From Haloferax marisrubri (GTDB lineage: Archaea > Halobacteriota > Halobacteria > Halobacteriales > Haloferacaceae): a stretch of 64,000 nt of DNA. The stretch is taken from contig NZ_LOPW02000022.1 in assembly GCF_001469875.2 (NCBI RefSeq), forward strand, positions 135,829-199,828, given 5' to 3'. Positions 45,160 to 47,663 of the stretch are shown in pieces (the stretch's first letter is position 1; each line of letters opens with the position of its first letter). The translations under genes were made by a program, and so were the position numbers. The notes under the pieces are model-generated. The model had not been told where the DNA came from, searched no databases, and saw only the letters and a list, made by a program, of their open reading frames with translations.

Positions 45160-45271
45160 TCACCGATTGCTATCCGGTCGATGCGTTTAACCATTATCAT
45201 TCTCGCCGCCGCGTGTGCTGTGTGTCAGACACGTGCGAACATTGATATGCCGCCGAGATAATCCCGGAGTA

Positions 45272-45868
45272 ATGAGTAAAATCACGTTCCGCGCCGACGA
45301 CGCCCTCGTCGAGCGCTTGGACCGCCTCGACACCTCGAAGAGCGAGGTGATGCGCGAGGCGCTCCGCCAGTACCTCGACGAACTGGAACGTGACGACACC
45401 GCGGGCGACGAAGCGTCCGACACCGACGGCCTCGACGGCGCGCTCTCGGCGCGGGTCGAGGAACTCGTCGACGAGCGACTCGACGAACGACTCCCGACGC
45501 TCGTCGAGGAAGCGGCGGCGGCCCGCGAGTCCGAGCGTCCGACGCCCTCCGAGCTGAACGTCAACATCAACGTCGATGGTTCGAGCGACGAATCCAGCGT
45601 AAACGCGGGTGTAGACCGGGAAACAAACGCGAATGCGATTCGTAAGACACGAGAGAATCCGGAGGCGACGGCGGCCGACGAGTCCGAGATGAGCTGTGGC
45701 CAATGCGGCGAGTCCGTGGGCGCAGACCACGTGTACTGCCCGAATTGTGGCGAGAAAACGTCCCACCGTGTGTTCTGCGAATGCGGCGACGAACTCCGCT
45801 CCGATTGGGCGTTCTGCCCCGACTGCGGGCGTCGGACGCCCGCGGCCGACGTTCTGGAACAAGCATAA
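45272..45868 (+). CDS. cdrL: RHH and zinc-ribbon transcription regulator CdrL
   Basis: 198 residues. Residues 1-45 are a ribbon-helix-helix (KITFRADDALVERLDRLDT, then SKSEVMREALRQYLDEL). A linker rich in Asp/Glu follows, then two C-terminal zinc ribbons with CxxC pairs (CGQCGES, CPNCGEK, CECGDE, CPDCGRR). In haloarchaea the long RHH protein CdrL is encoded directly upstream of cdrS-ftsZ2 and controls it; the order here is the same. ATG 45272 has a TATA-like TTGATATG about 26 nt upstream. One GTAAGAC motif also lies inside this gene (45642). Confidence 0.85.
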   Translation: MSKITFRADDALVERLDRLDTSKSEVMREALRQYLDELERDDTAGDEASDTDGLDGALSARVEELVDERLDERLPTLVEEAAAARESERPTPSELNVNINVDGSSDESSVNAGVDRETNANAIRKTRENPEATAADESEMSCGQCGESVGADHVYCPNCGEKTSHRVFCECGDELRSDWAFCPDCGRRTPAADVLEQA

Positions 45869-45907: not shown

Positions 45908-46065
45908 GTCTTACAATCGCCGTTACATTTATATTCTGTCCCTCTGTGGTGATTATCGCGTAAGACGGTTGTCTTACAGCCACCCGACGGCGGCCCGCAA
46001 CCCGGCGTCGTCCGTCGGTTTCCGGGTGTAAGACACTCGCACACGTGTGCGGCGCGCCGTCTTAC
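45908..46065. promoter_or_regulatory. cdrS-ftsZ2 promoter region with five GTCTTAC/GTAAGAC sites
   Basis: A TATA box (TTTATAT, 45928-45934) predicts a start near 45957 and a leader of about 120 nt. GTCTTAC or its complement occurs at 45908, 45960, 45971, 46028 and 46059. The sites at 45960 and 45971 form GTAAGACGGTTGTCTTAC, a perfect inverted repeat over the predicted start; those at 46028 and 46059 are also inverted. RHH dimers bind such short inverted sites, so these are candidate CdrL or CdrS operators. Confidence 0.6.
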
Positions 46066-46080
46066 CGGGGGAATGTAAAT

Positions 46081-46269
46081 ATGGAGCGTGTGACACTACG
46101 AATTCCGAAGCAGCAAATCGAGGAGGTCGAGCGGATGGTCGAGACGGGAGAGTTCCCGAACCGATCCGAAGCCATCCGTTCTGCCGTTCGCGATATGCTC
46201 AACGAACAGACGACGACTGACAAGCGACAGCGCGAATCTACCAGCAAGCGCGGCTGGGCGAAGGTGTAA
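46081..46269 (+). CDS. cdrS: Ribbon-helix-helix cell-division regulator CdrS
   Basis: 62 residues, essentially one RHH domain: [20 protein letters not shown], then [16 protein letters not shown], with a basic Lys/Arg tail. CdrS is known in haloarchaea as a short RHH factor co-transcribed with ftsZ2 and needed for normal division. It ends 2 nt before the ftsZ2 ATG. Confidence 0.92.
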
Positions 46270-46271
46270 CT

Positions 46272-47483
46272 ATGCAGGATATCGTTCGCGAGGCGATGGA
46301 ACGGGACGAGGCCGAGCGTCAGACGCAGTCGTCGCTCGACGACAGCGACGACCAGTTCGGCGACCCGCGAATCGTCATCGTCGGTGCCGGTGGTGCTGGC
46401 AACAACACCATCAACCGCCTGTACAACATCGGTGTCGAAGGGGCCGACACGGTCGCCATCAACACCGACAAGCAGCACCTGAAGATGATCGAAGCGGACA
46501 CGAAAATCCTCGTCGGGAAGTCCCTGACGCAGGGTCTCGGCGCCGGTGGTGACCCGTCGATGGGTGAGCGCGCGACCGAGATGGCACAGGGCACGATCAA
46601 AGACGTGCTCGGCGATGCCGACCTCGTGTTCGTCACCGCGGGGATGGGCGGCGGCACCGGTACCGGTGCGGCCCCCGTCGTCGCGAAGATCGCAAAGGAG
46701 CAGGGCGCAATCGTCGTGGGCATGGTCTCGACCCCGTTCAACGTCGAGCGCGCCCGCACGGTCAAGGCCGAGGAGGGACTCGAAAACCTCCGCAACGAGG
46801 CCGACTCCATCATCGTGCTGGACAACAACCGCCTCCTCGATTACGTCCCGAACCTGCCCATCGGCAAGGCGTTCTCGGTCATGGACCAGATTATTGCCGA
46901 GACCGTCAAGGGCATCTCGGAGACGATTACCCAACCGTCGCTCATCAACCTCGACTACGCCGACATGTCGACAATCATGAACCAAGGCGGCGTCGCGGTG
47001 ATGCTCGTCGGCGAGACGCAAGACAAGAACAAGACCCAAGAAGTGGTCAACGACGCGATGAACCACCCGCTTCTCGACGTGGACTACCGCGGTGCGTCCG
47101 GCGGTCTCGTCCACATCACGGGCGGCCCCGACCTCACGCTGAAGGAGGCCGAGGGAATCGCGAGCAACATCACCGAACGACTGGAAGCCGCCGCGAACGT
47201 CATTTGGGGCGCTCGCATTCAGGACGAGTACAAGGGGAAAGTCCGCGTCATGGCCATCATGACGGGCGTCCAGTCCGCGCAGGTCCTCGGCCCGACGACG
47301 CAGAAGCAGGCCGACAAGTCGCGTCAGAGCATCCAGTCGCGCGAGACGCAGCAACAACAGCAGTCGGGTTCAAGCTCGGAGTTCGATAGCTCGGAACGAG
47401 CCCAGACGGCGCAGAGCGGCACGTGGTCCGACGGCGGCCGCGACGAAGTCGAGAAGAACAACGGTCTCGACGTCATCCGGTAA
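46272..47483 (+). CDS. ftsZ2: Cell-division GTPase FtsZ2
   Basis: 403 residues, tubulin superfamily. GTP-binding motifs: [16 protein letters not shown], the tubulin signature [12 protein letters not shown], and the T7 synergy segment with [11 protein letters not shown]. The N-terminal extension and the position after cdrS identify the FtsZ2 type, which in Haloferax drives constriction at mid-cell together with FtsZ1. The C-terminal tail is Gln/Ser-rich and ends in [10 protein letters not shown]. Confidence 0.95.
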
Positions 47484-47663
47484 CGCCCTGTCTGACCCGC
47501 GCGGACGCCGCCGCGCCCGTCGGGTACGCTCGTGGGTTCTTTTTCGCTGACGTGGGTTTCTCCGACCGCAGGCCAAGTTCTGATTCGCCCAGCGCTGCCG
47601 CTCGGCCGTCAGTAGCTACTGTCCGACCCGTAAGACACGACGAAAAACGGAGTTCCGTACCGC

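Follow-up and report, generated by a model that had tools for sequence, protein, structure and literature searches.

Which DNA element governs the promoter of the division operon cdrS-ftsZ2 in haloarchaea, and which proteins read it? The question arises from a 64,000-nucleotide stretch of the Haloferax marisrubri genome (the window), in which the regulated division gene ftsZ2 (46272..47483, + strand) is preceded by cdrS (46081..46269, +) and cdrL (45272..45865, +). Both upstream genes encode proteins that match PF01402 (RHH_1) above its cut-off of 20.5 bits. CdrS, a small RHH protein and candidate second reader, scores 33.2 bits; CdrL, with 26.8 bits, additionally carries the CdrL middle region (PF24252) and a double zinc ribbon (PF12773). 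Within the genus, one other genome carries an additional FtsZ2-like gene (G210:C19:12207-13277), 83% identical over 361 residues.

Heptamer sites in the window

A preliminary description of the locus had listed five copies of GTCTTAC or its complement GTAAGAC upstream of cdrS and two outlying ones, and all seven were recovered at their positions. Site 1 (45908..45914, +) is found on the upstream side of the promoter elements; it is 52 bp away from an inverted repeat and phased with it at about 10.5 bp. Sites 2 (45960..45966, -) and 3 (45971..45977, +), 11 bp apart, are the left and right arms of this repeat, GTAAGAC-GGTT-GTCTTAC, which was likewise recovered on the predicted transcription start. 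Site 4 (46028..46034, -) falls into the predicted leader, and site 5 (46059..46065, +) immediately precedes the cdrS start codon. Of the outlying copies, the one within cdrL (45642..45648, -) covers Arg-Lys-Thr codons and was subjected to a test for DNA-level selection (see below), while the one past ftsZ2 (47630..47636, -) is a doubtful part of the array, with few counterparts that are mostly from Haloferax.

The window contains 10 heptamers, as compared to 3.71 +/- 2.09 in its shuffles, none of which (0/100) reached 10. Five of them sit in a cluster of 158 bp, where simple arithmetic from the window shuffles gives an expectation of ~0.009; apart from the two outlying copies, the other three (27563, 41128 and 52056) are isolated. 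Throughout the 3.9 Mb assembly, GTAAGAC-GGTT-GTCTTAC occurs a single time, and this cluster alone holds same-orientation heptamer pairs 10-80 bp apart.

The spacing of archaeal TATA boxes was used to place the transcription start. At haloarchaeal loci, a conserved TTTTATA, preceded by a BRE-like GCCGttA, occupies -33 to -27 relative to the repeat; its counterpart in the window is the predicted TATA box of cdrS-ftsZ2, TTTATATT (45928..45935, +). Since the repeat begins ~27-33 bp after this element, it lies on the predicted transcription start, and the cdrS start site is predicted to coincide approximately with the first base of the repeat.

Conservation and promoter geometry among Halobacteria

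The preliminary description had proposed a comparison among haloarchaea, and there the heptamers are kept throughout. After 160 haloarchaeal loci had been collapsed by identical upstream sequence, each of the 144 distinct cdrS loci (144/144) carried two to five heptamers within 230 bp upstream of cdrS, and all of the best 80 of 294 loci had two to seven copies within 450 bp. Heptamer density amounted to 18.8 per kb upstream (623 sites in 33,120 bp) against 0.12 per kb in the flanks (60 in 518,712 bp), i.e. a ~160-fold enrichment. The inverted repeat in its general form, GTAAGAC-N(2-8)-GTCTTAC, was found in 286 of the 292 genomes of the class, with exactly one copy in 285 of them, while a backward control pattern matched in few genomes only. 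One genome (G239) is the sole member of the class with two copies. Of the six genomes without a perfect repeat, five (G014, G018, G123, G173, G285) have one arm altered and carry both cdrS and CdrL; in the sixth (G229), a cdrS match was also not found. The sites follow the consensus Y-GTCTTAC-V, and two variants are enriched at haloarchaeal cdrS promoters, namely GTTTTAC and GTCATAC (the latter with 37 copies vs 3.4 expected).

Identical positions within Haloferax could by themselves reflect relatedness, but chance, or shared ancestry without function, has a negligible probability in view of the window shuffles, the 286 genomes and 144 loci, and an enrichment that holds while spacer length, orientation and site number vary between families. 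We therefore regard a conserved operator at cdrS-ftsZ2 as virtually certain. Across the gene set, selection at the DNA level acts on the copy within cdrL: 117 cdrL genes with a clean reading frame and a SKITFR start contained 74 heptamers, as opposed to 14.1 +/- 3.4 after synonymous shuffling (largest of 300 shuffles, 26). Past ftsZ2, on the other hand, 17 of 122 loci had a site within 300 bp, most of them from Haloferax.

The upstream sites lie mostly 52-53, 62-63, 73-74 or 114 bp from the repeat and share a 10.5-bp phase with it (R 0.86 over 124 sites). On the 20 distinct upstream distances the phasing gave an R of 0.63, with the null 95% value at 0.38, whereas the distinct distances of the leader sites are unphased (R 0.06). 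Several short boxes thus stand in fixed register at the promoter, as is typical of multi-box operators of RHH proteins. Taken together, the array is multi-site and conserved and its geometry appears suited to cooperative RHH binding, in agreement with the defined division operator that the preliminary description had suggested.

The sites might instead act mainly in RNA, through long-range pairing in the leader that controls mRNA stability or translation. The window leader does fold better than its shuffles (z -3.13), as do 65 of 70 leaders with a z of at most -2 (median -3.99; 70 of the 72 leaders sampled, drawn from 144), and the leader sites are biased in orientation, the start-proximal one being plus in 124 cases and minus in 10, the mid one minus in 83 and plus in 16. 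Once the heptamers had been removed, however, the median z went to -1.27 and 16 of the 70 leaders remained at -2 or lower. Besides, compensatory change was seen in none of the five imperfect inverted repeats (0/5), invariant arms being uninformative either way. The uncompensated repeats and this drop in folding led us to reject a plain RNA hairpin spanning the start. An action mainly in RNA is further opposed by site 1, upstream of the promoter, by the copy under DNA-level selection in cdrL, by the upstream sites, which are found in both orientations, and by an 11-bp grid outside the class (see below), which is a signature of the DNA helix. We consider it very unlikely; an additional role of the leader RNA alongside the operator may nevertheless exist. 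Processing inside ftsZ2 has been reported (PMC8303175, in the part covered).

CdrS-type boxes within and outside the class

The regulon of CdrS in Haloferax volcanii offers a close comparison, in that an RHH division regulator acts there on a symmetric motif at promoters that include ftsZ1 (PMC8406309, in the part covered). From the ftsZ1 and dacZ promoters, which are known CdrS targets, we inferred GTCNGAC as the CdrS box: eight Haloferax ftsZ1 promoters share a conserved GTCNGAC-N4-GTCTGAC and six dacZ promoters a GTC(A/T)GAC. In a wider set of ftsZ1 promoters (47 of 52 genomes matched; matches in G062 and G014 start at residue 6 and their positions are offset), a tally by eye found GTCNGAC in 40 of 47, paired at 11 bp in 19 of 47, and GTCTTAC in none (0/47). 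At four ftsZ1 promoters, GTCATAC shares the register of GTCNGAC. The H. marisrubri genome has seven places with paired GTCNGAC (control, 0), among them ftsZ1 and hisB, the latter recognised by eye. Paired boxes near hisB and other genes (L198-L203) are candidate CdrS targets beyond ftsZ1.

The ftsZ1 box GTCNGAC-N4-GTCNGAC and the repeat at cdrS-ftsZ2 share the 11-bp register and the inner halves. They differ in the outer halves (GTC vs GTA), and cdrS-ftsZ2 is absent among the 18 published CdrS sites (PMC8406309, as far as covered). At haloarchaeal cdrS promoters, moreover, GTCTGAC is unenriched (9 vs 11.4 expected), and GTCGGAC occurs 22 times against 26.8 expected. That GTCTTAC is an ordinary CdrS box was rejected on this lack of GTCTGAC enrichment and on the ftsZ1 promoters without GTCTTAC.

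GTCNGAC lies within 120 bp upstream of cdrL at 97 of 122 loci, including the window, where a CdrS-type GTCAGAC is read from the sequence at 45224..45230, and GTCAGAC at cdrL promoters numbers 81 copies vs 3.7 expected. Like the ftsZ1 box, the box is positioned directly upstream of an A/T-rich element. Judged from these promoter sequences, this suggests that CdrS acts on cdrL, although the absence of cdrL from the CdrS ChIP targets of Hfx. volcanii counts against such an action (PMC8406309, within the part covered).

Outside the class, 20 cdrS loci of the same phylum, hand-chosen from matching genomes, were compared with the rest of the fetched loci and with mononucleotide shuffles. GTCAGAC, which is one base away from GTAAGAC and matches the ftsZ1 box, was present upstream of cdrS at 19 of them (39 copies vs 0.33 expected). 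Of 104 pair distances of up to 60 bp between relaxed boxes, 95 were 11, 22, 33, 44 or 55 bp. No other observation points as strongly to dimers placed side by side on the DNA helix as this strict 11-bp register. Across the 20 loci, no adjacent CdrL-type gene was found, and GTCTTAC appeared once in total, in register (L176); GTCATAC occurs within the arrays of four. As these variants stand in register with CdrS-type arrays, CdrS probably tolerates the TAC half of the box.

A plausible history would start from an ancestral CdrS that bound its own promoter via GTCAGAC boxes. In Halobacteria, GTCAGAC would then have been recoded to GTCTTAC, so that the operon left the ordinary class of CdrS boxes; at ftsZ1 and cdrL, boxes of the GTCNGAC type would have been retained or acquired. 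Within the class the recoding seems to be complete, because GTCTGAC is unenriched at its cdrS promoters. We tentatively propose, with somewhat less than even confidence, that it took place at the root of Halobacteria and left CdrL and CdrS as a cross-wired feedback loop of two nodes that runs without CdrL where cdrL was lost. In that scheme, CdrS-type boxes would sit at cdrL and GTCTTAC at cdrS, with cdrS-ftsZ2 leaving the CdrS regulon.

Candidate readers of the operator

The preliminary description had named CdrL and CdrS as the proteins binding the heptamers. For CdrL this is in line with published ChIP data from Halobacterium salinarum, in which the sole bound region was that upstream of cdrS-ftsZ2, i.e. 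the same locus; a word search of this text gave no binding motif for CdrL (PMC7439475, as far as covered). In that species the cdrL deletion bore second-site mutations, and its analysis was taken no further there. On deletion of cdrS, the activation of ftsZ2 fails in early log phase (PMC7439475, same portion). For CdrS the claim fares less well: ChIP in Hfx. volcanii listed 18 sites, including ftsZ1, dacZ and hisB, with the cdrS and cdrL promoters absent from the table (PMC8406309, in the covered portion). Besides, CdrS targets use GTCNGAC, and the sites outlast the loss of CdrL.

This loss is a natural one. The CdrL profile, applied in each genome to the top 11 candidates of a first look, matched in 281 of 292 haloarchaeal genomes and in none of the candidates of 11, in contrast to the published statement that every sequenced member of Halobacteria encodes CdrL. 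Of these 11, G229 is also without a cdrS match. The other ten have cdrS but lack detectable CdrL (G001, G002, G007, G026, G092, G135, G137, G182, G260, G281); in seven of them all candidates were scored, and G137, G182 and G281 were judged by reads of the locus. They spread over seven genera (g6, g22, g23, g37, g51, g60, g67) and four families (f1, f2, f3, f10), each of which also contains CdrL-bearing genomes; these labels are tool-assigned, so that losses are counted by taxon label and not by tree. Reads of the CdrL-less loci (L027, L108, L119, L134, L139, L143, L154, L155, L252, L253, L254) found no CdrL hallmarks. In the window, a tRNA-Tyr is located upstream of cdrL; it is near cdrS in seven of the eight CdrL-less loci that were scanned. 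Two deep-branching families have an additional RHH-like gene immediately upstream of cdrL (L161 in G021, L162 in G217; profile matches with E 5.7e-10 and 2.7e-8).

We looked for decay of the operator on loss of cdrL and did not see it: the inverted repeat is perfect in all ten genomes. The operator hence survives the loss, CdrL is not its only reader and a second one must exist. One could still hold that CdrL alone reads GTCTTAC, that CdrS has no role here and that species without CdrL keep remnants. In favour of this, the CdrL ChIP is specific for the region (PMC7439475) while the CdrS ChIP omits it (PMC8406309), both within the parts covered. Neither CdrL nor the recoded box extends beyond Halobacteria, and seven aligned CdrL proteins show no variation in SKITFR, presumably the strand that reads the DNA. 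In addition, the upstream phased site is missing from seven of eight CdrL-less loci as compared to 27 of 131 with CdrL, a comparison uncorrected for relatedness. Remnants, however, would hardly be expected to have both arms perfect in 10/10 genomes from seven genera and four families or to retain the start-proximal site at 8/8 tabulated loci, and the five genomes with cdrS and an imperfect repeat all possess CdrL. On the strength of this retention, CdrL as the sole reader was set aside as quite unlikely.

Alternatively, a third haloarchaeal DNA-binding protein might read GTCTTAC, with CdrL arriving through it or beside it. Such a protein would explain the retention without CdrL and the missing CdrS peak, and the absence of a reversion to GTCTGAC at cdrS in CdrL-less genomes fits it as well as it fits CdrS. 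Yet it introduces an extra actor, the CdrL profile revealed no RHH paralogue in the H. marisrubri genome that could serve as a candidate, and the 11-bp register, which recurs in CdrS-type arrays, points to CdrS and CdrL. We deem a third reader unlikely. A scan of viral contigs found no relative of CdrS, and sequence searches of the PDB returned weak RHH matches only, e.g. NikR.

We therefore favour RHH proteins as readers, which we hold to be highly probable. In view of the ChIP data from Halobacterium salinarum, the operator is now probably read by CdrL, and probably also by CdrS or another factor, with CdrL the likely direct reader in most haloarchaea. CdrS, acting more weakly on the altered box, would be the most economical candidate for the second reader, for which we see an even chance. 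The combined reading, in which the heptamers form an operator in double-stranded DNA at the cdrS-ftsZ2 promoter, one that was recoded and is read by RHH proteins, CdrL and a second reader among them, has a good probability. Mechanistically, one RHH dimer would bind per heptamer; two dimers on the inverted repeat would touch each other and recruit further dimers to the flanking sites, and occupancy over the start site and the leader would block or tune transcription. Repression is the sign of regulation towards which we lean, from the position of the sites.

Operators of this kind have precedents. At met-box operators, dimers of the RHH repressor MetJ occupy neighbouring short boxes over promoters; that system is distinguished by its contiguous 8-bp boxes and by its co-repressor. 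Omega (ParB of pSM19035) is an RHH protein with 7-bp boxes in direct and inverted repeats over promoters, and it binds with one dimer per heptad, weakly on one box and strongly on two (PMC9499535, in the part covered). Among known systems, the Omega heptads offer the nearest working parallel, and multi-box operators of RHH proteins as such are already known. The Omega heptads are nonetheless contiguous and unrelated in sequence, whereas the boxes here are spaced, stand in an 11-bp register and are tied to a division operon (PMC9499535, same part). The operator itself was found undescribed in the main texts covered by our literature search, which included few subscription papers and no preprints; a search for GTCTTAC returned one unrelated paper, and the covered part of a review adds nothing on the operator (PMC12186497).

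How archaea control their cell division is still poorly understood, and the present work provides base-level coordinates for a division operator shared across a class. It also provides an older form of the operator in the same phylum, as well as natural losses of cdrL by which the role of CdrL can be told from that of CdrS. With this, the reader of the ftsZ2 promoter becomes directly testable, and the locus may exemplify the recoding of an operator.
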